Below, one piece after another: positions 1-44,831 of a stretch of DNA of 44,831 nt. The stretch's first letter is position 1; each line of letters begins with the position of its first letter. The DNA is from Sciscionella sediminilitoris (lineage in GTDB: Bacteria > Actinomycetota > Actinomycetes > Mycobacteriales > Pseudonocardiaceae). The notes beneath the pieces are model-generated. The model did not search any database. It worked only from the letters and a program-made list of their open reading frames with translations, and was not told where the DNA came from. A program made the position numbers and the translations under genes. The DNA is taken from contig NZ_JALM01000086.1 of the NCBI RefSeq assembly GCF_000737195.2, positions 1-44,831 of the forward strand. The letters run 5' to 3'.

Positions 1-19
1 CAACACAACCACTCACGAG
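1..19. repeat. Half copy of the 46-bp palindromic repeat (window edge)
   Basis: The first 19 bases equal the last 19 bases of the right arm of the palindrome seen complete at 21584-21629 (CAACACAACC then ACTCACGAG). The copy lies just beyond the 3' end of the sigma factor gene, which is transcribed towards it, so it could act as that gene's terminator. The missing part is the 8-bp centre and the left arm. Confidence 0.9.
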
Positions 20-6562: not shown

Positions 6563-7110
6563 CTGAGCTCGAACGGGCCGCGGCCGCGGTGCGCGCCGCC
6601 CCTGCCCGGCTCGGTGGCACCCGCCTCGTGGTCATCGACGGGCCATCGGGCTCGGGCAAGACCGTGTTCGCCACCCGGCTGCGGGAACTGCTCGGCTGCG
6701 TGCTCGTGTCCACCGACGACTTCGCCACCTGGGATGAGCCCTTCGCCTGGTGGCCGCGGCTGCACGAAGGCGTGCTCGAACCGCTGTGCCGGGGTGTTCC
6801 CGGCGGGTACCAGTGCGTGGAGTGGAGCGAGGGCGCGCCCTTTCCCGGGAGGTGGCGCACCGTCGAGGTGCCGGAAACCCTGATTCTGGAGGGGGTCTCC
6901 GCTGCCCGGCGCGCCGTCGCCGACCGGGCCAGCCTCACCGTGTGGATCAGCTACGGCACCCCGGAACAGCGGCTCGCCCGTTCGGTGGCCCGCGACGGGG
7001 AGGACCAGCGCGCCAACCTCGCCGCGTGGCAGCGCACCGAGGCCGGATGGTTCGCCGTGGACCGCCCCGAATCCCGCGCTGATTTGGTCGTGCGCGGTTG
7101 TGTTGGTTAG
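6559..7110 (+). CDS. P-loop kinase, uridine-kinase-like
   Basis: 183-aa NTPase with a Walker A motif GPSGSGKT (28-35), a following [11 protein letters not shown] segment and LILEGVSA, as in uridine kinase-like proteins of actinobacteria. The phosphorylated substrate is unknown. The GTG start overlaps the recR stop (GTGA), so translation is probably coupled. The last codons (V-R-G-C-V-G-stop) are encoded by the degenerate palindromic repeat at 7087-7132. The repeat has therefore replaced or supplied the natural C-terminus. The P-loop lies far from this end, so activity need not be lost. Confidence 0.85.
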
Positions 7111-7132
7111 AACCAACATTTCCGCTCACAAG
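7087..7132. repeat. Degenerate copy of the 46-bp palindromic repeat
   Basis: The left arm ends GGTTGTGTTGGTT, the centre is AG rather than CT, and the right arm is AACCAACATTTCC then GCTCACAAG. Only the inner 8 bp (TGTTGGTT/AACCAACA) plus scattered outer positions still pair. Relative to the other copies the centre reads as the reverse orientation. It covers the end and stop codon of the kinase gene. Confidence 0.8.
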
Positions 7133-7166
7133 GGGGATATTCGCAGCTCAGTGGCCTGCTTGCGGG

Positions 7167-7172
7167 TACTGT
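7167..7172 (+). promoter_or_regulatory. Putative -10 box of a leaderless transcript
   Basis: TACTGT ends 7 nt before the ATG at 7180, and no Shine-Dalgarno sequence is present. Confidence 0.4.
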
Positions 7173-7179
7173 CCGGATC

Positions 7180-7608
7180 ATGGACTGGACCCTCGAGGTG
7201 GTTGTGCTCCCCGTCAGCGATATTGAGCGATCGATCGAGTTCTATCGCGACCGGGTCGGTTTCGAGCTCGATCATGACACGGTCACCGAGCACATGCATG
7301 TCGTGCAGCTGACCCCGCGCGGATCGGGGTGCTCGATCGTCTTCGGTGACCTGCCCGCGCAGACCGAGATGCAGCCGGGTTCGCTGAAGGGGCTCCAGCT
7401 CTGCGTCGCCGATGCCACGGCCGCACGTGCGGAGCTCGCCTCGCGTGGGGTCGAGGTGAGCGAGCTGCAGCGGTTCGGTGAGCAGGACGGCAGCACCTTC
7501 TTCGGGTTCGCCGATCCGGACGGCAACACCTGGGCGGTGCAGGAGCTCAAGGTCCGCGCGAGCAAACCGCTGATCCCGGCGGAAGCGCGCGGCCGATTCG
7601 CCGGATAA
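7180..7608 (+). CDS. VOC superfamily (glyoxalase-like) protein
   Basis: 142-aa vicinal-oxygen-chelate fold protein built of two beta-alpha-beta-beta-beta units. The first includes VVVLPVSDIERSIEFYRDRVGFEL and the second includes LCVADATAARAELASRGVEV and FGFADPDGNTWAVQEL. The usual C-terminal metal-ligand region (DPDGN..W.VQE) is present. Substrate is unknown; the family includes glyoxalase I, dioxygenases and antibiotic-binding proteins. It is transcribed alone, probably from a leaderless promoter, because the kinase upstream is cut off by the palindromic repeat. Confidence 0.88.
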   Translation: MDWTLEVVVLPVSDIERSIEFYRDRVGFELDHDTVTEHMHVVQLTPRGSGCSIVFGDLPAQTEMQPGSLKGLQLCVADATAARAELASRGVEVSELQRFGEQDGSTFFGFADPDGNTWAVQELKVRASKPLIPAEARGRFAG

Positions 7609-7667
7609 CGGCACCGGCCAAGTACCGAGGGTAACTGTGCGGGGGCCTATGAATTCACCATTCACAG

Positions 7668-18430: not shown

Positions 18431-18510
18431 GTGAGCCGGGCTCGCGAGGCGAACCGAAGACACAGCCGTGGTCACGCGCGAGGGCCGAGCGTCGGGGAGG
18501 TGCTTGTGAG
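18431..18510 (+). repeat. GTGAG-bounded linker repeat (second copy)
   Basis: An 80-bp unit related to 12459-12540, with matching GTGAGC start, GCGAACC, GAAGACACAGC, CCGAGCG, GAGGTG and TTGTGAG end. Its last bases run into the palindrome at 18503-18548. The GTG at 18431 is in frame with the nitroreductase through both repeats, giving a 42-codon extension that I do not believe is used. Confidence 0.65.
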
Positions 18511-18548
18511 TGGTTGTGTTGGTTCTAACCAACACAACCACGCACGAG
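18503..18548. repeat. 46-bp palindromic repeat
   Basis: Arms of 22 nt lie around a central CT. The inner 15 bp are perfect. Mismatches are at arm position 3 (T opposite G, a wobble pair in RNA) and position 7 (GTGAG in the left arm against GCGCAC-type in the right). The right end abuts the Shine-Dalgarno AGGAGG of the nitroreductase. It separates that gene from the glycosyltransferase. Confidence 0.95.
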
Positions 18549-21564: not shown

Positions 21565-21567
<3 letters not shown>

Positions 21568-21629
21568 CCTGGACAAACGGGTGCTCGTGAGTGGTTGTGT
21601 TGGTTCTAACCAACACAACCACTCACGAG
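21565..21629. repeat. Extended palindromic repeat (19-bp extension plus perfect 46-bp palindrome)
   Basis: The palindrome spans 21584-21629, with two 22-nt arms that are perfect complements around CT. The left 19 bp (TGACCTGG..AAACG..) match the extensions at 32546 and 44794 with identical spacing. The TGA is the leuA stop codon. The right arm contains the TGA (minus strand 21625-21623) that ends the convergent fucosidase gene. It can therefore serve as a shared two-way terminator, though no T-run follows on either side. Confidence 0.95.
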
Positions 21630-23125
21630 TGCTTTGTCGGGAATGTGAAGGTGTAGGCGTACTTGCTGGTGGTCGAGGCGGGGCCTTCCTCGGGGAGGGT
21701 GACCACGAGTTTGCCTGTTGACCGCGACCAGGGCAGTGACGGTCCGTGGTGGCCGAGCAGACGGATGGGTGCGTGCGCGGCGATCGGGACGGGTGCGTTC
21801 ACCTCGAGGGTTCGCCCCGGCCAGCCGAGGCTGATGATGTGGAAGGCCCCGGGTGTGGTGGTGAACCGCAGCTTGCCTTCGGCCTGGGTGCTCCAGTAGC
21901 GGGAACGGTAGATCGCCGGGCCGTTGATTCGCAGCCAGTCGCCGATGCTCTCCAGGCGTTCGACCATGACTCGGGGAATGGTGCCGTCCGCGCGCGGGCC
22001 GATGTCCAGCAGCAGGTTGCCGTTCTTGCTGACGCTGTCCACGAGGGTGTGCACCAGGTTCTCCGCAGTGGCGTACTCGCTGATCGGGGTGGCCGCGTTG
22101 TAGCCGAAGGAGTGTGGGTCGATGCCCCGGGTGCCCTCCCATTTCTTCGCGTGGAACGGCGGGTTCGGTTCGTACTCCGGGGTGGTGAAGTCGGCGACCT
22201 CGACCCCCATCCGGTCGTTGACCACGACTTCTTTGCCGCGCTGTGCCGCGCGGTTGTAGTAGTGGGCCAGCAGCGGGAGGCTGTTGTTCGGCCCGCCGAT
22301 ATCGCCCCACAGGATGTCGGTGTCGTAGCGCTCGATCAGTTCGACCATCTGCCGGACCTGGAGTTCCTCGACGTAATCGCGGATCGGGGTCGCTCCGGTG
22401 TAGGGCAGCGGTTCGCCGGTGTAGTACTGCTTCGGGGCGCCACCGGGGAAGTTGTCCTGGTACCCCGGATAGGCCGGGTTGTACCACTCGGGAAGCGAGT
22501 AGTAGGTGCCGCGCTTGAGGCCGGGTGCGCTGGTCCGCGCCGCCTGGAACAGTTCGCCGAGCAGGTCGCGCCGTGGACCGAGCCTGGTCGAGCTGCGCCC
22601 GCTCGCCGCGGTGTCGAACAGGGCGAACCCGTCGTGGTGCTTGGTGACGAACACGAAGTAGCCGGCCCCGGCACGTTCGAACAACCGCACCCAGGAGTGC
22701 GGGGCGAACCGTTCGGCGGTGAACCCGGCGATGAAGTCGTCGTAGGCCGCTCGCGGTCCGTAGGTGTCCAACTCGTGTCGAAACGTCGGATCACTGCGGT
22801 CGTTCATCTGCGACCAGTACCATTCGGCGTACTCTTTGCCGACCGGTGCCCATGCGGGGACCGAATAGAGCCCCCAGTGCACGAAGATGCCGAACTTGCG
22901 GTCGTCGAACCAGTCGGGCAGCGGGTGGCCGCGCAGCGAGTCGACGGTGGGTGTGTACGGCCCGGTCGAGGTAGGTACCCAGCTCTTTTGCCCGGCGAAG
23001 GCCGGTGTGGCCGGGGAGCCGAACAGGGCACCGGCGGCGAGTCCGCCCGCCGCGAGGCCACCTGCGGCGAGCAACCGCCTCCTGTCGAACGGAGCGGGAC
23101 GCGAATGCGGTTCGTGCGCGGTCAT
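21623..23125 (-). CDS. Tat-exported alpha-L-fucosidase (GH29), single catalytic domain
   Basis: 500-aa secreted glycoside hydrolase that should release L-fucose from glycans. A twin-arginine signal (DRRRLLAAGG, 14-23) precedes a GH29 barrel with IFVHWGLYSVPAW, FVTKHHDGFALFD and the proposed nucleophile Asp275 in DILWGDIGGP. A C-terminal beta domain follows (about 400-500). GGAGGAG precedes the ATG at 23125. The stop codon lies inside the palindromic repeat. A fucose-regulon operator-like site is at 23161-23175 upstream. Confidence 0.93.
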   Translation of the reverse strand: MTAHEPHSRPAPFDRRRLLAAGGLAAGGLAAGALFGSPATPAFAGQKSWVPTSTGPYTPTVDSLRGHPLPDWFDDRKFGIFVHWGLYSVPAWAPVGKEYAEWYWSQMNDRSDPTFRHELDTYGPRAAYDDFIAGFTAERFAPHSWVRLFERAGAGYFVFVTKHHDGFALFDTAASGRSSTRLGPRRDLLGELFQAARTSAPGLKRGTYYSLPEWYNPAYPGYQDNFPGGAPKQYYTGEPLPYTGATPIRDYVEELQVRQMVELIERYDTDILWGDIGGPNNSLPLLAHYYNRAAQRGKEVVVNDRMGVEVADFTTPEYEPNPPFHAKKWEGTRGIDPHSFGYNAATPISEYATAENLVHTLVDSVSKNGNLLLDIGPRADGTIPRVMVERLESIGDWLRINGPAIYRSRYWSTQAEGKLRFTTTPGAFHIISLGWPGRTLEVNAPVPIAAHAPIRLLGHHGPSLPWSRSTGKLVVTLPEEGPASTTSKYAYTFTFPTKHS

Positions 23126-23160
23126 GGACTCCTCCAGGTGTGTCCCCCGTGGATCCTGTC

Positions 23161-23175
23161 ATTCGTCCGATGTAT
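23161..23175. promoter_or_regulatory. Operator-like site of the fucose regulon (fucosidase 1)
   Basis: ATTCGTC-C-GATGTAT matches the pattern ATACATC-N-GATGTAT at 12 of 14 arm positions. It lies 36 bp upstream of the fucosidase start (minus strand). Confidence 0.55.
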
Positions 23176-23305
23176 CTCCGGCAAAATACTGTGGCAGGGC
23201 GCTATGTTCGGCGTCAAGCGTCCTATTCATCGGGTCAATGTGGGTATCGAACCCTCCAAAATCAGTGAGCGGCCAGGAATTGCCGCGCTATCACCAGGAT
23301 GGCCG

Positions 23306-23335
23306 TTGCGTACCCAGACATCGGAGGTTTACGGT
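23306..23335 (+). promoter_or_regulatory. Promoter and operator-like site of the sugar porter gene
   Basis: TTGCGT (23306-23311) and TACGGT (23330-23335) are 18 nt apart. Between them AGACATC-G-GAGGTTT (23316-23330) matches the ATACATC-N-GATGTAT pattern at 11 of 14 positions. A bound regulator would block RNA polymerase. Confidence 0.5.
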
Positions 23336-23369
23336 GCGGGCGTCGTGCTGACGCGGCGAGAGGACAAGG

Positions 23370-24728
23370 ATGTCGAACGTCTCCACGGAGCAGTCCGCGG
23401 TCCGGGAACCGATTCCGAGGTTCGTCTACCTCGTCGCGGTTCTCGGTGGCATGTCCGGGATCCTGTACGGCTACGACTCGGGCTCCATGTCCGGTGCGCT
23501 TCCGCTGGTCACCAAGGACTTCGGGCTCAGTTCGACCGGTCAGGGCCTGGTCACCAGCATGCTGTTGTTCGGTGCGCTGCCCGCGATCGTCGGTGCCACG
23601 CTGGCAGCACGCCGCTTCGACCGGAGGCATCTGCTCATGGTGGCCGGAGCGGTGTTCACTCTCGGTTCGATCGGCTGTGCGCTCGCCCCGAACGCGGGCA
23701 CCCTGATGGTGTTCCGCTTCGTGCTCGGTACCGCGTGCGGGATCGCGAACCAGTTCGGCCTGATCTACCTCAGCGAGCTCGCCCCGAAACGCATTCGCGG
23801 ACTGCTCACCGCGCTCTATCAGCTCGCGGTGAATATCGGGATCCTCGGCGCGTACGTGGTCGGCAGCGTGTTCGCCTCCTCGGGGGCGTGGGAGTGGATC
23901 CTCGGACTCGGCGCGCTCCCCGCGCTGGTGTTCGGTATCGGCATCACGATCTCCCCGGCGAGCCCGCGCTGGCTGCTGATGCGCGAGCGGGAAGCGCAGG
24001 CGCGCGCGGTGCTCGGCAGGCTGCGCGCCAGCGGGGTCGAGGAGGAACTGCGCGAGATCCAGGGCAGCCTGCGCAGGCAAAACGCCGGATTCCGGGACCT
24101 GCTGGGCACTTACCGGCCCGCCGTGGTGATGGCGCTGATTCTCACCTTCTTCCAGGTGTTCACCGGGATCAACTCGGTCGTCTACTACGCGCCGATCATC
24201 TTCGAGGACGCGACCGGCAGCGGTACTTCGGCGGGCACCATCGCCAACTACGGCGTGGGGACCGCGCTCGTGCTCTCCACGGCCGTCGCGCTCCCGCTGA
24301 TCGAACGACTCGGCCGGGTTCCGCTGCTGACGGCGAGCCTGGCCGGGCAAGTGCCGCCGATGATCGTGCTCGCCATTTTCCCGCACGTGACCTGGCTGGC
24401 GATCGTGTGCGTGTTCGTCTACACCTGCGCGTTCGGCTTCGGTCTCGGCCCGGTGTTCTGGCTGTTCTGCCCGGAGATCCTGCCGCTGCGTGCACGGGCT
24501 CTCGGCATGGGCGTCATCACCTTCACCCAGTACCTGTTCAACTCCCTTTCCGCGCTGGTCTTCCCGAGCGTGCTCGCCTGGTCCGGCAGTGCGGTCTTCG
24601 GGTTTTTCGCGGTCCTCTCGGCAATCGCGGCCTGGTACATCCGTGCCCGGGTTCCGGAGACCAAGGGCCGCTCACTCGAGGAGATCGAGGGCTACTGGCG
24701 AGACCGGGCCGCGGCCACGGCAAGCTGA
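23370..24728 (+). CDS. MFS sugar porter (probable L-fucose or fucoside uptake)
   Basis: 452-aa transporter with 12 predicted helices of the sugar-porter family. Signature pieces are [14 protein letters not shown] in helix 1, the loop [18 protein letters not shown] after helix 4, PASPRWLLM between the halves, [16 protein letters not shown] in helix 7, and [13 protein letters not shown] at the C-terminus. It is unrelated in motif to the E. coli fucose permease FucP. Fucose as substrate is inferred only from position between a fucosidase gene and the regulator and from the operator-like site upstream. Confidence 0.9.
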
Positions 24729-24761
24729 CCCGATAATGAGTGTGCACAGAACATCGCCCAT

Positions 24762-24797
24762 ATTCCAACGATCGTGAGAATCAACGATCGTTGGAAT
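24762..24797. promoter_or_regulatory. Perfect inverted repeat upstream of the GntR gene, probable operator
   Basis: ATTCCAACGATCGT (24762-24775), 8-bp spacer, ACGATCGTTGGAAT (24784-24797). The right part also contains the 12-bp palindrome CAACGATCGTTG. It ends about 30 bp before the regulator start, so autoregulation is likely. It differs from the 15-mer found at the other fucose promoters. Confidence 0.65.
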
Positions 24798-24827
24798 GAT
24801 GCAGGGTGGAGAGTAAGGGGAGCGCGG

Positions 24828-25502
24828 TTGCCGGTCACCGACGAGGCCATCGAAAAGATCAAGGGCATGATCGTCTCCGGCGAGCTGCGGCCCGGTGACC
24901 GGTTGCCGAAGGAGCCCGAGCTCGCCCGCCAGCTCGGCCTTTCCCGCAGTTCGCTGCGGGAGGCGGTGCGGGCGCTCTCGCTGATCCACGTGCTCGATGT
25001 GCGTCAGGGCGATGCGACCTATGTGACCAGTCTGGAGCCTTCGCTGCTGCTCGGGGCGATGAGCTTCGTGGTGGACTTCCACCAGGACGACACGGTGCTG
25101 GATCTGTTGCAGGTGCGCGGAATCCTGGAACCGGCGGCCACCGCGCTCGCGGCGCAGCACATGGACGCCGAGCAGCTGCAGCGATTGCGCACGGTGCTGG
25201 ACGCGGTGGACGAGTCGCCGACCGTGGAGGAACTGGTACAGAACGATCTGGAGTTCCACCGGTTGATCGCGGACGGTTCGGGGAACACGGTGCTGTCCTC
25301 GATGCTCGACGGGATCTCGGGCCCGACCGCGCGGGCGCGGGTGTGGCGGGGGATCACCGAGGAGGACGCGGTGCGCCGCACCCACGAACAGCACGAGATG
25401 ATCTACGCGGCGATCGCGGCGCGCCAGCCGGATCTGGCCCGCTCCTGGGCGACGGTGCACGTTGCCGGGGTGGAGCAGTGGCTGCGCAGCACCCTGGCCT
25501 GA
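24828..25502 (+). CDS. GntR family regulator, FadR/FCD subfamily (probable fucose repressor)
   Basis: 224-aa regulator. The N-terminal winged helix (about 5-70) contains DRLPKEPELARQLGLSRSSLREAVRAL. The all-helical FCD ligand domain (about 85-220) contains VRGILEPAATALAA, NDLEFHRLIAD and HEQHEMIYAAI, where conserved Asp/His residues usually bind a metal and an organic acid. A TTG at 24828 is chosen because AAGGGGAG lies 5 nt before it and the upstream frame runs through the operator. The effector may be a fucose-pathway acid such as fuconate (inference). Confidence 0.92.
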   Translation: MPVTDEAIEKIKGMIVSGELRPGDRLPKEPELARQLGLSRSSLREAVRALSLIHVLDVRQGDATYVTSLEPSLLLGAMSFVVDFHQDDTVLDLLQVRGILEPAATALAAQHMDAEQLQRLRTVLDAVDESPTVEELVQNDLEFHRLIADGSGNTVLSSMLDGISGPTARARVWRGITEEDAVRRTHEQHEMIYAAIAARQPDLARSWATVHVAGVEQWLRSTLA

Positions 25503-25505
25503 GGA

Positions 25506-27347
25506 TCAGCGCGATCGCAGGTAAAGGCCGAGGCTGGAGATCCGCGGCCGGGCCCGCGCCGAACCGATTTCCAGGCGCAGCGCCCGGATGCCTTCCTCGT
25601 GCACCGGGAGGATGCGCGCGTAGCCGATCGTGGTCCCCTCGGCGAGACGTGACCAGTGCACCCCGTCCGTACTCGCGTGCACGGCGAAGGATTCCACCCG
25701 CTGGCCGTGCGTGATGTCCTCGCCGATCCGGATGCGATCGAAGCGCAGCGGCCTGTCGAAACCGAGCTCCAGCAGGTTGTCCGGCCCGGGGCGCCATGCG
25801 GTGTGCAGCCGCCCGGATGTGAGTGCCCGGACGGTTTCCCGTGGTGCGGCCGCGGTCTCGGCAAGCAGATCGTGTCCGTAGCAGGTGCGCAGTGCGGTAC
25901 CGAATTCGGCGAGTGCGCGCACGTCGTTCTCCTCGATCCTGCCGTGCACGTCCGGTCCGGCGTTGAGCAGGAGCACCGCATTGCGGCCGACCGTGGTCTC
26001 GTAGCGATCCAGGAGTTCGGGCACGGTTTTCGGCTGTTCTCCGGCATGCCAGAACCAGTGATGCCCGCGAAGGCAGACGTCGGCCTCGGCGGGGAACCAT
26101 TCCAGGTACCGGGTGCGCGGGTCTTCGAGCACGGCGCGGGAGGCGATGTCCGGGGCGGGCTTCGCCGGATCGTAGGCGGTGGCATCGTGCTCGGGAAAGT
26201 CGTTGCCCACCAAGGGATCCTTGGCGGTGCGTGGATCGAGCTCGGTGGGGATGACGCTCCATTCGGTTTCGCGCGCGATGCCGTCCTCATTGCCGACCCA
26301 GCGGATCCCGGCCGGTCCGCCGAACACGAGGGTGCTCGGGGAGAGTTCGGCGATGAGCCGGAACCACTCCGCGAAGTCGTACTCCTGCTCGATTCCGTAG
26401 TCCCGCCAGGGATTCGCGCCGTCCAGCCAGAGTTCGTCGATGGGGCCGTACTCGGTGAGCAGTTCGTAGAGCTGGTTGAGGTAGTAGGCGTTGTAGTTGT
26501 CTGCGGTGACCGTGCGCCAGGGCGCGCGATCCTCGCCGGGAACCGGGGTGGGGATCGGGCGCGGGACGCGCGGGCTGCGGTCGCCGTACCGGCCCATTCC
26601 CGCGGGACGACGCGCCCGGTCGGCATAGGTGGCCTGTTCCTCGATGCTGAGCGGTTGTCCCGAATCGTGTTTGGCGACGATCGTGCGCACGAACCCGGCA
26701 TGCCAGTCGTGGGGCAGTTCGGCGCCGTCCGCGGGGGAGAGGTAGACGCCGACCCGCAGTCCGTTGCGCCGTGCGGAGTCCACATATGACCGCAGGAGGT
26801 CACCCTGTGGATTCGGTTGCCCGGCCCGCCGAGCCTGCCAGTACGCCGACTGATCGTGCCCGCGGCGTGCCGCAGCCCGGTCCCGGGCCGGATCGGCCCG
26901 CGGTGTCCACCATGGACTGGCGATGATCGAATGGTTGGTGTAGCGGCTCGGATAGAGCACGAAGCCGTCGTGGTGTTTCACGGTCAGCATGACCTGTTTC
27001 GCACCTGCCGAAGCATAGGCGCGCATCCACTGCTCGATCTCGACACGGTCCGGGGCGAACCAGGCCTCGTCCTCGGTGCCCGAACCCCACTCCCGGTCGG
27101 TGAAGGTGTTCATGCCGAAATGGGTGAACGCGGTGATTTCCCTGCGCTGCCAGGCGAGTTGTTCCGGGCGGGGTGCCACGTGTGCGGCCTTGGCCAGCCT
27201 GCGGGCCGCCGGATCGCCTGGCGCGACCTGCCGGACCGGTCCATTGTGGACTGGTGCCGCCGCCGCGGGAGCCCCGGTCAGCAGTGCCGCGATACCGGCC
27301 GTACCACCGGCGAGCATCGTTCGCCGGGACAACTCCGAACCTGCCAT
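25506..27347 (-). CDS. Tat-exported alpha-L-fucosidase (GH29) with C-terminal discoidin-like domain
   Basis: 613-aa secreted enzyme. A twin-arginine signal (SRRTMLAGG, 7-15) is followed by a GH29 barrel with ITAFTHFGMNTFTDREWG, LTVKHHDGFVLYPS and the nucleophile candidate Asp309 in DELWLDGANPW. A C-terminal beta-sandwich of about 130 residues resembles an F5/8 type C carbohydrate-binding module (FAVHASTDGVHWSRL). It differs strongly from fucosidase 1, so the two probably act on different linkages. Last gene of the three-gene minus-strand operon, 12 bp after the SDR. Confidence 0.93.
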   Translation of the reverse strand: MAGSELSRRTMLAGGTAGIAALLTGAPAAAAPVHNGPVRQVAPGDPAARRLAKAAHVAPRPEQLAWQRREITAFTHFGMNTFTDREWGSGTEDEAWFAPDRVEIEQWMRAYASAGAKQVMLTVKHHDGFVLYPSRYTNHSIIASPWWTPRADPARDRAAARRGHDQSAYWQARRAGQPNPQGDLLRSYVDSARRNGLRVGVYLSPADGAELPHDWHAGFVRTIVAKHDSGQPLSIEEQATYADRARRPAGMGRYGDRSPRVPRPIPTPVPGEDRAPWRTVTADNYNAYYLNQLYELLTEYGPIDELWLDGANPWRDYGIEQEYDFAEWFRLIAELSPSTLVFGGPAGIRWVGNEDGIARETEWSVIPTELDPRTAKDPLVGNDFPEHDATAYDPAKPAPDIASRAVLEDPRTRYLEWFPAEADVCLRGHHWFWHAGEQPKTVPELLDRYETTVGRNAVLLLNAGPDVHGRIEENDVRALAEFGTALRTCYGHDLLAETAAAPRETVRALTSGRLHTAWRPGPDNLLELGFDRPLRFDRIRIGEDITHGQRVESFAVHASTDGVHWSRLAEGTTIGYARILPVHEEGIRALRLEIGSARARPRISSLGLYLRSR

Positions 27348-27359
27348 GGCTTCCGCTCC

Positions 27360-28085
27360 CTACTTGCGCAACCGCAAACCCTGCATTCCTCCGTCGACGG
27401 CGAGTTCGGCCCCGGTCGTCGCGGCATTGCGCGGGCTGGCGAGGTAGGCGATCGCCGAGGCCACCTCGCGCGCGCTGACCAGCCTGCCCATGGGCTGCCG
27501 CGCCTCGAGTGCGGCGCGTTCGGCAGTGGGATCCGGTGCCGCGTCGAGCAACCGGCCGATCCACGGGGTGTCCGCGGTTCCCGGATTCACGCAGTTGACC
27601 CGGATTCCCTCACCGACGAGGTCCGCGGCCATGGCACGGCTCATCGCGAGCACCGCACCCTTACTCGCGGAGTACAGCACGCGGTCCGGAAGCCCGGCGG
27701 TGGCCGCGATCGAACCGGTGTTCACCACCGCGGCGTTCGCGGACTCGCGCAGATAGGGCAGTGCGGCGCGCAGCACCCGGACCATACCGAGCACGTTCAC
27801 GTCGAGCACCTGCCGCCACTGCTCGTCATCGTTGTCCGCGATCCCGCCCTGTGCACCGATTCCGGCGTTGTTGACCAGGATGTCGATGCCGCCGAGATCA
27901 CGCGCGGCCGCATCCACCGCGGCGCGGACGGCTGCGTCATCGGTGACATCGGCGCGGTATCCGGTCTCGGTCTCCCGGTCGAGCACCGCGACCGCGGCGC
28001 CCGATTCGGCGAGCAGTTCCGCCGTGGCCGCACCGATTCCGGATGCTCCGCCGGTGATCAGGGCACGCAACCCGGTGAATTCCAT
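27360..28085 (-). CDS. SDR, probable 2-keto-3-deoxy-L-fuconate dehydrogenase
   Basis: 241-aa classical short-chain dehydrogenase: TGGASGIG (11-18), NNAG (72-75), Ser125, Tyr138 and Lys142 as catalytic residues. The expected reaction is oxidation of 2-keto-3-deoxy-L-fuconate to the 2,4-diketo acid with NAD. The ATG shares one base with the stop of the fuconate dehydratase (TAATG), so translation is coupled, and GGAGGT precedes it. The alternative, that it is the L-fucose dehydrogenase, is less likely because the aldo/keto reductase in the plus-strand operon suits that step. Confidence 0.85.
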   Translation of the reverse strand: MEFTGLRALITGGASGIGAATAELLAESGAAVAVLDRETETGYRADVTDDAAVRAAVDAAARDLGGIDILVNNAGIGAQGGIADNDDEQWRQVLDVNVLGMVRVLRAALPYLRESANAAVVNTGSIAATAGLPDRVLYSASKGAVLAMSRAMAADLVGEGIRVNCVNPGTADTPWIGRLLDAAPDPTAERAALEARQPMGRLVSAREVASAIAYLASPRNAATTGAELAVDGGMQGLRLRK

Positions 28086-29386
28086 TACCGTACCTCCGTC
28101 CACTTCGGTCCATCGGGAAACCGGTACGCGGCAACGGATTCCGGATGCATGGCCGCGCCGAAACCGGGCTCGGCCGGGACGAGGTAGCGCCCGGATTCGA
28201 TACGTACCGGTGTGATGAAGTGTTCGTGCAGGTGATCCATGTACTCGATGGCGCGCTGCTCGGTGGTTCCGGAGACGGCGAGGTAGTCGAACATGGAGAG
28301 GTGCTGCACCTGTTCGCACAGCCCGACCCCACCCGCGTGCGGGCAGACGGGAACACCGAATTTGGCCGCCAGCAACAGGATCGCCAGGTTCTCGTTGATC
28401 CCGCCGACCCGGCAGGCGTCCAACTGCACCACATCGAGCGCCTCGGACTGCAGGAACTGCTTGAACATCACCCGGTTCTGCACGTGTTCCCCGGTGGCCA
28501 CGCGCATCGGGTGCACGCCCTTGCGGATCGCCGCGTGCCCGAGCACATCGTCCGGGGCGGTGGGTTCCTCGATCCAGTATGGCTCGAATTCGGCGAGCGC
28601 GCGCAGCCAGCCGATCGCGTCCGGCACCCCCCACACCTGGTTGGCGTCGATCGCGATGCGCACCTTGTCCCCGACGGTTTCCCGTGCCAGGCGCAGCCTT
28701 CGCCGGTCCGCGTCGAGGTCGGCGCCGACCTTCAGCTTGATCAGGTCGAAGCCCTCGGCGACCGCCTCGGTGCAGCGGCGCACCAGTTGCGCATCGTCGT
28801 AACCGAGCCAGCCGGGAGTGGTGGTGTAGGCGGGGTAGCCGTCCGCGCGCAGTCGCTCGGTGCGCTCGGAGCGTCCGATCGCGGCCGCACGCAGCAGATC
28901 CAGGGCCTCATCCGGGGTCAGCGCGTCGGTCAGGTAGCGGAAATCGACCGTGTCCACCAGTTGCTCGGGGGAGAGTTCGGCGAGGAACTGCCAGCCAGGT
29001 TTCCCCGCTCGGCGAGCGGCGAGGTCCCAGGCCGCGTTGATCACCGCCCCTGCGGCCATGTGCATCGCACCCTTTTCCGGACCGAGCCAGCGCAACGGGC
29101 TGTCCCAGACCAGCCTGCGGGCGAAACCACCGAGGTCCGCGGTGATCTCCTCCACGGAACGGCCGAGCACCAGCGGTTCGAGGGCGCGCAGCGCGGCGAG
29201 CTCCACCTCGTTGCCCCTGCCGATGGTGAACACGAGGCCGTGGCCGCGTTCCCCGGCGGATGTGCGCAGGACACAGTAGGCGGCCGAGTAGTCCGGCGCC
29301 GGGTTCATCGCGTCCGAGCCGTCGAGTTGCCGCGAGGTCGGGAACCGGACATCCTCGGTCTCCAGGGCCTCGATCACGTCCGCCAT
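28085..29386 (-). CDS. L-fuconate dehydratase (enolase superfamily)
   Basis: 433-aa enzyme of the mandelate-racemase branch of the enolase superfamily. Lys217-x-Lys219 (KLKVG), Asp247 (IDAN), Glu273/274 (IEEPT), Glu300 (TGEH) and His350 (PHAGG) fit the residues known for Xanthomonas L-fuconate dehydratase nearly one for one. The N-terminus, with [26 protein letters not shown], is also typical of this family. It removes water from L-fuconate to give 2-keto-3-deoxy-L-fuconate. The ATG at 29386 is preferred to the GTG at 29392 by distance from AAGGAG. First gene of its operon. Confidence 0.94.
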
Positions 29387-29403
29387 GCCCACGCTCCTTC
29401 ACC

Positions 29404-29418
29404 AAACATCTGATGTAT
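29404..29418. promoter_or_regulatory. Operator-like site of the fucose regulon (dehydratase operon)
   Basis: AAACATC-T-GATGTAT matches the ATACATC-N-GATGTAT pattern at 13 of 14 positions. It lies 17 bp upstream of the minus-strand dehydratase start, probably covering the transcription start (TGGACA - 18 nt - TAGAAA upstream on that strand). Confidence 0.65.
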
Positions 29419-29470
29419 TTCTAGCTGCACCGAGGCGTTCCTGTCCAGTTTCCCGACAGAGCTGAGCCCG

Positions 29471-29500
29471 TTGACTTGATACATCTGATCTCTGTACCGT
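29471..29500 (+). promoter_or_regulatory. Promoter with internal operator-like site, fucose plus-strand operon
   Basis: TTGACT (29471-29476) and TACCGT (29495-29500) are 18 nt apart. ATACATC-T-GATCTCT (29479-29493, 12 of 14 positions) fills the spacer exactly. The ATG at 29510 is only 9 nt past the -10, so the transcript has almost no leader. Confidence 0.65.
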
Positions 29501-29509
29501 CCTGGGGTT

Positions 29510-30358
29510 ATGAGGTTCCTGCGCATCGGTGCGGTCGGCGCCGAACGGCCCGCGGTACTCGACGAGGCGGGGCGCTGCTGGGATGTGTCCGGGGTACTCG
29601 GGGACATCGACGGCGCGGCGCTCGCCGATGGCGGGCTGGACCGGGCGGCCCGTGCGCTGGCCGAGGGGAAGCTGCCGGAGCTCGATCCGGCCGGGCAGCG
29701 CATCGGGGCGCCGATCGCGCGGCCGGGCAAGGTCGCCTGCATCGGGCTGAACTATTCCGATCATGCGGCGGAAACCGGGGCGAACCCGCCCGCCGAACCG
29801 GTGCTGTTCTTGAAAACCAGCGATACCGTGATCGGCCCGAACGATGAGGTACTCGTGCCGAGAGGCAGTGAGCGCACCGATTACGAGGTGGAGCTCGCGG
29901 TCGTGATCGGTGCGACGGCGCGCTATCTGCGCGATGAGTCCGAGGCGGCGGCGGTGATCGCCGGGTACGCGATCGCCAATGATGTGAGTGAGCGCAGTTT
30001 CCAGCTGGACCGCGGTGGCCAGTGGGACAAGGGCAAGTGCTGCGAGACGTTCAATCCGCTCGGTCCGTGGCTGGTGACTCCGGACGAAGTGGGCGATCCG
30101 CAGCGGCTCGGCATGCGGCTGTGGGTCAACGGGGAACAGCGCCAGGACGGGACCACCGCGAACATGATCTTCGGGGTGCACCACATCATCTGGTATCTGA
30201 GCCAGTTCCTGGTGCTGCGGCCCGGCGATGTGGTCAACACCGGAACCCCGGCCGGAGTTGCGCTCGGCCGCGGTGGCCCCTTCCTGCGCGCCGGGGACGT
30301 GGTCGAGCTGGAGATCGACCGGCTCGGCCGGGCCAGGCAGGTGTTCGGCGCGGCATGA
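29510..30358 (+). CDS. FAH-family hydrolase, probable 2,4-diketo-3-deoxy-L-fuconate hydrolase
   Basis: 282-aa member of the fumarylacetoacetate hydrolase family. The core contains KVACIGLNYSDHAAETG (74-90), the metal ligands Glu126 and Glu128 in DYEVELAVVIG, then YAIANDVSERSFQ, KGKCCETFNPLGPW and VVNTGTPAGVALG. In the L-fucose and L-rhamnose diketo pathways this family splits the diketo acid to pyruvate and L-lactate, which is the inferred role here. It overlaps the next gene by ATGA. Confidence 0.9.
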   Translation: MRFLRIGAVGAERPAVLDEAGRCWDVSGVLGDIDGAALADGGLDRAARALAEGKLPELDPAGQRIGAPIARPGKVACIGLNYSDHAAETGANPPAEPVLFLKTSDTVIGPNDEVLVPRGSERTDYEVELAVVIGATARYLRDESEAAAVIAGYAIANDVSERSFQLDRGGQWDKGKCCETFNPLGPWLVTPDEVGDPQRLGMRLWVNGEQRQDGTTANMIFGVHHIIWYLSQFLVLRPGDVVNTGTPAGVALGRGGPFLRAGDVVELEIDRLGRARQVFGAA

Positions 30359-31302
30359 GCGGGCGGCACCGGGTCGAGCGCGAGCTCGGCCGCAGCGGGG
30401 TTTCGGTGACCCAGCTCGGTTTCGGTACCGCGCCCATCGCCGGGCTGTACGCCGAGGTCGAACCCGAACTGGCCGCGGCGACCCTGGAGGCGGCCTGGAA
30501 AGCGGGGATCCGGCATTTCGACACCGCACCGCACTATGGGCTCGGGCTTGCCGAACGCAGGCTCGGTGCCTTCCTGGGTGAGCAGCAGACCGGCGCGGTG
30601 GTGTCCACGAAGGTCGGACGATTGCTGCGGCCCGGCCGGGCGCGGCAGGGGGACGCCGAGTTCTGGGGCACCCCGGATCTGGTGCGGGTGCGCGATTACC
30701 GCACGGAGGGGGTGTACGCCTCGGTCGCGGAAAGCCTGGAGCGCACCGGGCTCGAGCGGTTCGACATCCTGTTGATCCACGATCCCGATGAGCACTGGGA
30801 ACAGGCGATCGACGAGGCCTACCCGGCGCTCGAGCGATTGCGCGCCGAAGGTGCCGTGCGGGCGATCGGGGTGGGGATGATGCAGGCCGAGATGCCCGCG
30901 CGGTTCGTGCGCGAGACCGATATCGACTGCGTGATGCTCGCCGGCCGGTACAGCCTGCTCGACCGTACCGGCGCGGACGAACTGCTCCCGCTGTGCGCGC
31001 AGCGGCAGGTCGGGGTGCTGGTGGCCGGAGTGTTCAACGGCGGCATCCTCGCCGATCCGGCCGAGGGGGCCCGGTTCGACTACCGGCCCGCCGATCCGGC
31101 CACGCTCGAGCGGGCGCGCGAACTCGCCGCGGTGTGTGCCCGGCACGGGGTTCCGCTCGCGGCCGCGGCCATTCAGTTCCCACTGCGCCATCCGGCCGTC
31201 ACCTCGGTGGTCGTCGGAGTGCGCACTCCGGAGGAACTACGTCTGGATGTCGAACTTCTGAATGTTGACATTCCGCAGGTCGTCTGGGCGGAGCTCGCAT
31301 GA
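30355..31302 (+). CDS. Aldo/keto reductase, probable L-fucose dehydrogenase
   Basis: 315-aa aldo/keto reductase with the full tetrad Asp56, Tyr61, Lys86, His142 (FDTAPHYG, STKVGR, LLIHDPDEH). It belongs to the branch that includes D-threo-aldose/L-fucose 1-dehydrogenase, as judged by TAPHYGLGLAERRLGAFL and GRYSLLDR. Expected reaction: L-fucose plus NAD(P) to L-fucono-lactone. Both ends overlap neighbours by ATGA, so the operon is tightly coupled. Confidence 0.88.
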   Translation: MSGRHRVERELGRSGVSVTQLGFGTAPIAGLYAEVEPELAAATLEAAWKAGIRHFDTAPHYGLGLAERRLGAFLGEQQTGAVVSTKVGRLLRPGRARQGDAEFWGTPDLVRVRDYRTEGVYASVAESLERTGLERFDILLIHDPDEHWEQAIDEAYPALERLRAEGAVRAIGVGMMQAEMPARFVRETDIDCVMLAGRYSLLDRTGADELLPLCAQRQVGVLVAGVFNGGILADPAEGARFDYRPADPATLERARELAAVCARHGVPLAAAAIQFPLRHPAVTSVVVGVRTPEELRLDVELLNVDIPQVVWAELA

Positions 31303-32123
31303 TCGACGCGCACCATCACGTCTGGGACCTGGGCGTACGACCACAGGAGTGGATCGACCCGGGCACGATGGGCCCGATCCTGCGGGATTTCCCGGTCACC
31401 GAACTCCTGCCGCAGGCCGCCGCCGCTGGTGTGGACCGGACCATCCTGGTGCAGACGGTGACCGTGCCCGAGGAGACCCCGGAACTGCTCGCCATCGCCG
31501 AACGGACCGAACTGGTCGCCGGGGTCGTCGGCTGGGTCGACCTGACCGCCCCGGATATGGCCGAGCGGCTGGCCGCGGTGCACGGACCGCTGCTCAAGGG
31601 GATCCGGCACCAGGTGCAGGGCGAGCCCGATCCGGACTGGCTCGGCCGCGCGGATGTGCGGAACGGACTGCGCGCGGTCGCCGCGGCCGGACTGGTCTAC
31701 GAACTGCTCGTGCTGCCGCACCAAGTGCCCGCCGCGATCGAGGTGACGCGTGCGCTGCCCGAGCTGACCTTCGTGCTCGATCACCTCGGCAAACCACCGA
31801 TCGCCTCGGGCGGCTTCGAGCCCTGGGCGGCCCGGATCCGGGTGCTCGCGCAGGCCCCCAATGTGTACGCGAAGCTCTCCGGCCTGGTCACCGAGGCGGG
31901 CACAGCGGACCGGGCCACGATCCAGCCCTATGCCTCCCATGCGATCGAGGTGTTCGGGCCGGACCGGTTGCTGTTCGGCTCGGACTGGCCGGTGTGCCTG
32001 CTCGCCGCCGACTACCCGCGGGTCGTCGAACTCACCGGGCAGCTGCTTGCCGGGCTCGGACCTGCCGAACGCGAACGTGTCTGGACCGGAACCGCCGCGC
32101 ACGTCTACCGGATCGGAGCCTGA
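31299..32123 (+). CDS. Amidohydrolase, probable L-fuconolactonase
   Basis: 274-aa metal-dependent hydrolase of the COG3618 type. The N-terminal DAHHHVWD (His5-His7) starts the metal site. LDHLGKPPI and LFGSDWPV complete the pattern seen in L-fuconolactonase and related lactonases. It should open the lactone made by the preceding dehydrogenase. It starts in an ATGA overlap and is followed 2 nt later by the mutarotase. Confidence 0.9.
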   Translation: MIDAHHHVWDLGVRPQEWIDPGTMGPILRDFPVTELLPQAAAAGVDRTILVQTVTVPEETPELLAIAERTELVAGVVGWVDLTAPDMAERLAAVHGPLLKGIRHQVQGEPDPDWLGRADVRNGLRAVAAAGLVYELLVLPHQVPAAIEVTRALPELTFVLDHLGKPPIASGGFEPWAARIRVLAQAPNVYAKLSGLVTEAGTADRATIQPYASHAIEVFGPDRLLFGSDWPVCLLAADYPRVVELTGQLLAGLGPAERERVWTGTAAHVYRIGA

Positions 32124-32125
32124 TC

Positions 32126-32548
32126 ATGCTGCGCTACCCGCTGTTGCATCCGCCGCTGCTGCGCGCCCTGGCCACCGCGGGGCATGGCTCCAAGGTGCTC
32201 ATCGCCGATGCCAACTACGCGCACGACGCGAACGCCCACCCGCGTGCCGAGCGCATCCACCTCAACCTGCGCCCCGGACTGGTCGCCGCCGACGACATCC
32301 TGGAAACCCTGCTCACCGCAGTCCCCGTGGAGTCGGTTCAGGTGATGAGCCCGGATGACGGCACAACCCCGGCCGTGTTCGCTCGTTACCGGGACCTGCT
32401 CGGCCCCGAACTCCCGCTGCGGCCACTGGAACGGTTCGCCTTCTACGAACGCTGCCGCGAGCCCGACCTCACCGTGTGCATCGCCTCCGGTGACGACCGC
32501 CTCTACGCCAACATCCTGCTCACCCTGGGCTACCTCGCACCGCGCTGA
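32126..32548 (+). CDS. fucU: L-fucose mutarotase (RbsD/FucU family)
   Basis: 140-aa protein of the RbsD/FucU family, which interconverts the alpha and beta anomers of L-fucose. It shows LLRALATAGHGSKVLIADANY (a GHG-type catalytic His and the conserved ADAN), VQVMSPDD and RFAFYERCREPDLTVCIASGD followed by YANILLTLG, where the Tyr is typical. It is the last gene of the operon. Its TGA stop (32546-32548) is the first triplet of the extended palindromic repeat. Confidence 0.93.
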   Translation: MLRYPLLHPPLLRALATAGHGSKVLIADANYAHDANAHPRAERIHLNLRPGLVAADDILETLLTAVPVESVQVMSPDDGTTPAVFARYRDLLGPELPLRPLERFAFYERCREPDLTVCIASGDDRLYANILLTLGYLAPR

Positions 32549-32610
32549 CCAGGGTAAACAGCCCCTTGTGCGTGGTTGTGTTGGTTCTAACCAACACAAC
32601 CACGCACGAG
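32546..32610. repeat. Extended palindromic repeat at the end of the fucose operon
   Basis: The palindrome spans 32565-32610, with 22-nt arms around CT and one mismatch at arm position 3 (T opposite G). It is of the GTGCGTGG type. The 19-bp left extension reads TGACCAGG..AAACAG.. with the same spacing as the copies at 21565 and 44794. It is well placed as the operon terminator and forms the right border of the fucose island. Confidence 0.95.
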
Positions 32611-44793: not shown

Positions 44794-44831
44794 TGACCTG
44801 GGGAAACGCGTGCTCGTGAGTGGTTGTGTTG
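44794..44831. repeat. Half copy of the extended palindromic repeat (window edge)
   Basis: The extension TGACCTGG..AAACG.. (44794-44812) and the first 19 bases of the left arm (44813-44831) match the copy at 21565. The window ends three bases before the end of the arm, the mirror image of the cut at the other window end. Confidence 0.9.

Follow-up and report, generated by a model that had tools for sequence, protein, structure and literature searches.

Palindromic units behind stop codons around dnaA in two species of Sciscionella

The window and its palindromes

The window, that is the whole stretch of 44,831 nucleotides analysed here, is the entire contig C86 of a 7.42-Mb Sciscionella genome assembled in 215 contigs (G000). 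It was compared with Sciscionella marina (G001, with contigs and coordinates identical to those of G041). Copies of a 46-bp palindrome are distributed along it, and two of them follow leuA, identified by PF00682, PF22615 and PF08502, and a gene of the RbsD/FucU family (PF05025). Six copies had been described from the letters of the window alone: three full, one degenerate and two halves, with arms of 22 nt around CT and, at three of them, an exactly spaced 19-bp left extension. Re-reading of the sequence confirmed each of these elements, which lie among the following features.

1..19: right half-palindrome at the contig start; corresponds to S. marina C4:128526
7087..7132: degenerate 46-bp palindrome; apex AG, not CT; 6 mismatches to the consensus
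7133..7624: segment of ~0.5 kb adjoining the palindrome at 7087, absent there in S. marina
7180-7608, plus strand: glyoxalase-family gene within the 7133..7624 segment
18436..18463, minus strand: part of a second short repeat (GTGTCTTCGGTTCGCCTCGC...) found at palindromes
18503..18548: complete 46-bp palindrome, 80 nt past a predicted gene end, without the TGACC extension
21565..21583, plus strand: 19-bp extension; TGA at 21565-21567 is the leuA stop codon
21584..21629: complete 46-bp palindrome, 22 nt arms around CT
21630..32564: block of ~10.9 kb between two direct copies of the extension-plus-palindrome unit
32546..32564, plus strand: 19-bp extension; TGA at 32546-32548 ends the RbsD/FucU-family gene
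32565..32610: complete 46-bp palindrome, 22 nt arms around CT
44794..44812, plus strand: 19-bp extension; no predicted gene ends here
44813..44831: left half-palindrome at the contig end

The extension reads TGACC.GG..AAAC..... and begins at 21565, 32546 and 44794; Pfam bore out the assignment of its TGA as the stop codon of the two genes named above. A 28-bp core of the palindrome, searched with up to 3 mismatches, matched four times in the window and not once in 100 dinucleotide shuffles of it. RNA folds of the complete window copies lay far below those of shuffled sequences (z = -7.9, -6.6 and -4.8), with a smaller departure for the degenerate copy (-2.0). When the window was searched with Rfam 15 at gathering score, a tRNA was the only match, the palindromes matching no known RNA family.

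Because the window is a whole contig, its two half-palindromes are contig ends, at which the assembly broke inside a palindrome. Contigs C24 and C99 of G000, like C86, end inside palindromes, and five copies have central Ns; the repeat is therefore a main cause of assembly breaks in the origin region of this genome.

Distribution around dnaA

A consensus search of the whole genome and of related species, which the sequence-only reading had proposed, found about 50 loci across G000 and S. marina, nearly all of them in ~282 kb around dnaA. With contigs ordered by synteny, the copies span from -94 kb (a G000 copy) to +187 kb of dnaA, and dnaA sits among palindrome copies in both species. Listed at up to 10 mismatches, there are 44 copies in G000 and 46 in S. 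marina, which together represent 50 distinct loci. A covariance-model search of both strands, with 150 candidates scored per genome, gave 90 and 92 matches in the two genomes, and the matches listed (about 150 of the 182) revealed no place beyond those already known. Half-arm matches with at most 1 mismatch fell on 9 of the 215 contigs of G000, and two contigs hold all but two of such places in S. marina. Between 120 and 200 kb of S. marina C24 there was no copy at up to 10 mismatches, and beyond this interval no half-arm match. One stray copy, orthologous in both species (C36:184796 / C46:319398), lies outside the domain; save for this copy the motif is, as a domain marker is, repeated and limited to one chromosomal domain.

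Among named genomes the exact core was found in Sciscionella marina DSM 45152 alone, on two scaffolds (G000 is possibly outside that collection). At up to 2 mismatches the core occurred in 2 of 297 genomes of the family, G000 and S. marina, which are syntenic and mostly 93-96% identical over long stretches.

As a stand-in for oriC we used dnaA together with three near-consensus parS sites within ~9 kb of it. A single region would cover dnaA by chance in ~3% of cases, and the two species do not provide independent observations; the link to the origin that the positions of the copies indicate is therefore suggestive, not proven. The domain is lopsided about dnaA, and spacing within it was not significantly even (CV 0.77; 5.4% of random sets were as even).

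Insertion directed by the replication strand was considered and rejected, as the orientation of the extension had no clear bias among the copies scored (right, 11 plus and 9 minus; left, 6 plus and 3 minus). Genome-wide, the extension motif matched 36 times in G000 and 30 times in G041, with 15 matches in each lying outside the domain; the reversed pattern matched 3 times in either genome.

Stop codons, gene ends and hairpin anatomy

Tabulation of distances to stop codons showed that 69 of 90 copies have a stop codon between -12 and +60. The palindrome starts exactly 16 nt past a stop codon at 20 of the 50 loci and 14-17 nt past one at 25 of them, and a TGA inside the palindrome arm ends a gene at 5 loci. 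It had been claimed that complete copies lie at or just beyond the 3' end of a gene. Within the window this held: the distance is 16 nt for the copies at 21584 and 32565 and 80 nt for that at 18503, and the copy at 7087 overlaps a predicted gene end by 24 nt. Of the 50 loci it applied to most, with a stop from -7 to +59 nt at 39 and no stop up to +59 nt at 11. Genes were called by a simple codon-usage finder, which is unreliable for start positions and short genes. By these calls, the 3' end is the closer one for 25 of the 28 tandem copies in S. marina, at a median of 16 nt. Among gaps of 46 bp or more, a copy is present in 11 of 17 between convergent genes, in 26 of 94 between tandem genes and in 7 of 49 between divergent ones (convergent versus divergent, p = 1.7e-4). 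Copies between divergent genes make up 7 of the 46 in S. marina. At S. marina C4:121066 the finder missed a gene end that it called 16 nt away in G000.

Stops at 14-17 nt mostly share an upstream base: CTGA is found in 23 of 26 such stops, compared with 37.8% of 344 predicted genes in the portions of S. marina C4 and C24 that were analysed (p = 1.3e-7). The 23 distinct genes with a stop at this distance were compared with proteins encoded around dnaA in 11 relatives, and 10 were matched. Eight of the 10 have a natural C-terminus, ending within a few residues of the relative's end, so that their stop is ancestral and has the unit behind it. The other two end differently, and both are weak matches (25-38% identity).

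The flanks of the palindrome are rich in T at +4 to +9: T accounts for 54 of 156 bases on the far side and, on the opposite strand, for 81 of 156 on the near side, against a background of 18.1%. On the near side the tract arises through the CAAAC of the extension. The same T tract is seen on sides without an upstream gene end, as expected if the hairpin works both ways. These tracts are short and start ~3 nt past the stem, not directly at it. A simple terminator scan of 17-34 kb flagged the palindrome at 21584 and not that at 32565, with 1 of 3 complete copies recovered, and the scan returned 6 sites in total versus 6.5 in shuffles. Covariation between the arms was above that of column shuffles; of 47 copies, 17 fail to pair at arm position 12 and 14 at position 13.

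A hairpin near the 3' end, T tracts on two sides and a preference for convergent gaps are shared with intrinsic terminators, and a survey reported the same gene-end preferences for stable intergenic stem-loops (excerpt of PMC1590033). Unlike terminators, the Sciscionella palindrome is one base-constrained sequence at ~50 places, with offset T tracts and regional confinement. E. coli REPs are reported to affect translation only when less than 16 nt from the stop (excerpt of PMC12306157); by analogy, a unit at exactly 16 nt would occupy the nearest spacing that is free of a REP-like effect on translation.

Two-species history, constraint and rival readings

Partners at the same place in G000 were found for 40 of the 46 S. 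marina copies, 35 of them complete and 5 with central Ns. Four of the remaining copies correspond to G000 contig ends, one is deleted, and for one (C24:20483) the half-arm scan gave no match at the G000 counterpart, which may be N-filled or absent. In the other direction, 4 of the 44 G000 copies are without a separate complete partner in S. marina.

G000 C24:10945: deletion in the S. marina comparison
G000 C46:25164: copy split by an insertion
G000 C86:32565: merged through loss of the block between two copies
G000 C153:10171: other sequence in S. marina

The S. marina counterpart of the window palindrome at 18503 is degenerate, with part of an arm replaced by another sequence, and at the 44794 locus S. 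marina has kept the extension, lost the palindrome and carries the second short repeat.

The units had been described as mobile-looking and as elements that may insert at stop codons. Comparison of orthologous sites revealed no lineage-specific insertion among the copies compared (a set without S. marina C24:20483), and two sites that appeared empty were palindrome deletions that keep the extension and an arm stub. Active insertion was rejected on these grounds, both sites representing collapse and not a pre-insertion state. The sequence-only reading had itself named a lack of empty orthologous sites as telling against it, and with none found current mobility is not sustained. Earlier copying must still be invoked to account for ~50 similar units.

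Several rearrangements have a palindrome at their edge. The block at 21630-32564 is delimited to the base by its two direct copies and has an alpha-L-fucosidase gene at one end and the RbsD/FucU-family gene at the other, and S. marina has at this locus one copy of the unit and no block. Together with the ~0.5 kb glyoxalase segment, this 10.9-kb block accounts for two of the 5 palindrome-edged synteny breaks among 26 in the domain contigs (p = 6e-4 on a rough null; some breaks may be assembly differences). The second short repeat (GTGTCTTCGGTTCGCCTCGCAAGCTCGG and flanks) was seen in the window at 18436-18463 on the minus strand and in S. marina at C24:63029, C4:161922, C4:146544 and C4:107004; in the fetched contigs, 4 of these 5 places are within ~45 nt of a palindrome and the fifth is where the other species has one. 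At C4:1238 / C24:5130 of S. marina (G041) a palindrome is split at its apex by a sequence with pieces of an rve integrase-core gene at both contig ends (Pfam), and by its look this sequence is probably an insertion sequence.

We tentatively favour the reading that the units are bidirectional 3'-end hairpins or terminators that were copied near the origin before the species split and no longer appear to move. It builds on the observed sequence, location, stop spacing, T tracts, orthology and constraint (see below), from which we infer termination, a mechanism of copying and a reason for confinement. Each ~65-bp unit would consist of a 15-bp conserved segment at the upstream gene's own stop (C-TGA-CCWGSNCRAAC), ~5 variable bases and the 46-bp palindrome. 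Its transcript would form a hairpin of ~22 bp, 16 nt behind the stop codon and T-rich at +4 to +9 on both sides, which could act as a bidirectional transcription terminator or as a hairpin that protects the 3' end. Units would have been copied to ~50 places, mostly just behind stops and less than ~190 kb from dnaA, before the species split; since then they would have persisted, flipped at the apex, sometimes collapsed by deletion and come to mark the edges of gene gain and loss, with no sign of movement. Of the earlier proposal of portable terminators or structured RNA elements, this retains the association with stops and 3' ends, the terminator-like anatomy on two strands and the repeated unit of extension and palindrome, but not portability, as no insertion was observed among the copies compared.

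Constraint on the arms was assessed in 34 orthologous pairs. The ten most conserved folded positions, selected from the same data as tested, differ between the species in 3 of 680 comparisons, whereas other arm positions differ in 100 of 816 and element-free intergenic DNA in 831 of 15,680 (5.3%). The pair of the window palindrome at 18503, part of whose arm is replaced by another sequence, was left out, and its inclusion changes the first count to 6 of 700. In a simulation with equal rates, the ten lowest positions had ~30 differences, with a minimum of 17 in 20,000, compared with the 3 observed. The arm bases that are kept are 4-6, 8, 10, 15-17, 19 and 20, while pairing at 12-13 is not kept. 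Gene conversion among copies or template switching within the palindrome could, like selection, yield shared changes. Against the terminator reading stand the short, offset T tracts and a scan that returned no more sites than shuffles, the copies between divergent genes, the 11 loci with no stop up to +59 nt, the lost pairing at arm positions 12 and 13 and, in genus g16 (see below), the lack of a clear gene-end preference. Nor does it explain confinement near dnaA or the ten near-frozen folded positions, and for this reason a protein site of the origin domain is kept as a strong rival.

According to this rival, which we regard as possible but on balance unlikely, the palindromes are duplex sites bound by a sequence-specific protein, dimeric or tetrameric, by which the origin region is marked or organised as at parS, ram or matS sites, and gene ends are occupied because a large site is least harmful there. 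Confinement of the copies to -94..+187 kb of dnaA in both species is consistent with it, as are the low rate of change at the ten positions relative to intergenic DNA and to the rest of the arm, and the keeping of particular bases where pairing at 12-13 is lost. The same positions were, however, picked from the data in which they were counted, and the lopsided region, the chance cover of dnaA and the non-independence of the species weigh on the link to the origin. Nor does a protein site explain the exact coupling to stop codons. Repeated sites limited to an origin-proximal region are also a feature of parS (ParB) and ram (RacA): parS sites can be dispersed across 10 to 650 kb (excerpt of PMC7174722), and ram sites are placed left of oriC (excerpt of PMC9564211). 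The Sciscionella palindrome differs from both in being of other sequence, much longer and tied to stop codons, and its binder is only hypothetical. It was rejected as a parS site, since it is unlike the TGTTTCACGTGAAACA-type 16-mer and the three near-consensus parS sites near dnaA are separate from it.

A family-wide set of origin palindromes was also rejected. In 11 genomes from 11 other genera, scanned for at most 60 kb on each side of dnaA (in two genomes the scan covered a total of just 80 and 40 kb), no 10-mer was common to two palindromes and there was no repeated palindrome family near dnaA, which counts against a protein site; one of these genomes had repeated parS 14-mers near dnaA. 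A search for other palindrome families outside the domain in S. marina yielded 27 palindromes in 895 kb, including the stray copy, with a single repeated 10-mer that was common to just two.

Should the palindromes prove to be protein sites, they would represent a new type of marker of the origin domain in actinobacteria. A combined reading, in which ~50 sites form a genus-specific address code of the origin for a hypothetical protein marking ~280 kb and double as 3'-end hairpins that would keep transcription from running through the protein sites, seems to us rather improbable. The copies form one family that is origin-confined, has a base-exact tie to natural stops and is partly frozen across a species split, and such repeats border places where blocks of genes have been gained or lost. 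A single organism can thus serve to test how a repeat comes to be restricted to one domain of the chromosome, and whether such hairpins are retained for termination or for protein binding.

Related palindromes were sought in 397 genomes of the order. The model matched 29 of them at E <= 1e-4, counts being floors as at most 15 candidates were scored per genome; 11 of the 29 belong to genus g16, which also gave the strongest matches after G000. The g16 palindromes have the same length, the outer GTGAGTGG and the apex GGTT-CT-AACC as in Sciscionella, and their middle is variable, with several subfamilies that are mostly unlike that of Sciscionella. In the g16 genome G085 a looser pattern gave 60 matches on one strand and 63 on the opposite one, with some palindromes counted twice. 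The 85 listed places extend across 9.5 Mb, with no more than 8 in any 290 kb (KS p = 0.07), and 46 of them have fully complementary 8-nt middles. In contrast to the Sciscionella copies, these palindromes are chromosome-wide, a further point against an origin-marking protein site, and the TGACC extension was not seen beside the 16 g16 loci compared. The same loci, in 17 rows, gave no clear gene-end preference (6 tandem, 4 divergent, 3 convergent and 4 inside predicted genes). T made up 38% at +4 and +5 of g16 flanks.

The palindromes might also be selfish REP- or MITE-like hairpins without host function that spread near the origin by local transposition or ectopic copying and are now fossil, the survivors standing behind stops as harmless there; we consider this quite doubtful. 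In favour of it are the copied unit, whose left boundary is sharp and falls at the stop codon, and g16, which has subfamilies and, at loci L154 and L160, a palindrome at the centre of a longer inverted repeat whose ends resemble GAATGTCCGATT...AATCGGACATT, a form similar to a MITE. The palindromes are themselves targets, as seen from the rve-bearing insertion at the S. marina apex and the second short repeat nearby. Yet no polymorphic insertion or pre-insertion site was found among the copies compared, and constraint exceeds that of other intergenic DNA. MITEs have terminal inverted repeats, a target-site duplication and empty sites; the Sciscionella unit is a single palindrome. Searches of a plasmid collection and, for the g16 form, of a phage collection gave no match. 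Y1 transposase (PF01797) was absent from G000, G041 and the g16 genomes G016 and G055, and present in 8 of 60 genomes of the family.

REPs of E. coli and others are likewise short intergenic palindromic hairpins, often just behind stop codons; the Sciscionella unit is longer (46 bp, perfect or nearly so), confined to one chromosomal stretch and set at a fixed 16-nt spacing. REPs are described as palindromes of 20-40 bp that carry GTAG or CGTC as a tag at one end and are associated with RAYTs, some types being without a dedicated transposase (excerpt of PMC3733652), so the missing Y1 alone does not exclude a REP-like element. A REP/RAYT system was rejected because neither tag was present in the aligned copies or the consensus flanks and no Y1/RAYT transposase was found in either Sciscionella genome. 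The literature searched, partly at the level of titles and abstract beginnings, held no description of the Sciscionella palindromes.

Two changes within the palindromes were seen between the species. The apex is flipped between CT and AG at 9 of 35 loci, faster than ordinary substitution, and at G000 C46:32830 the palindrome interior is inverted relative to S. marina.
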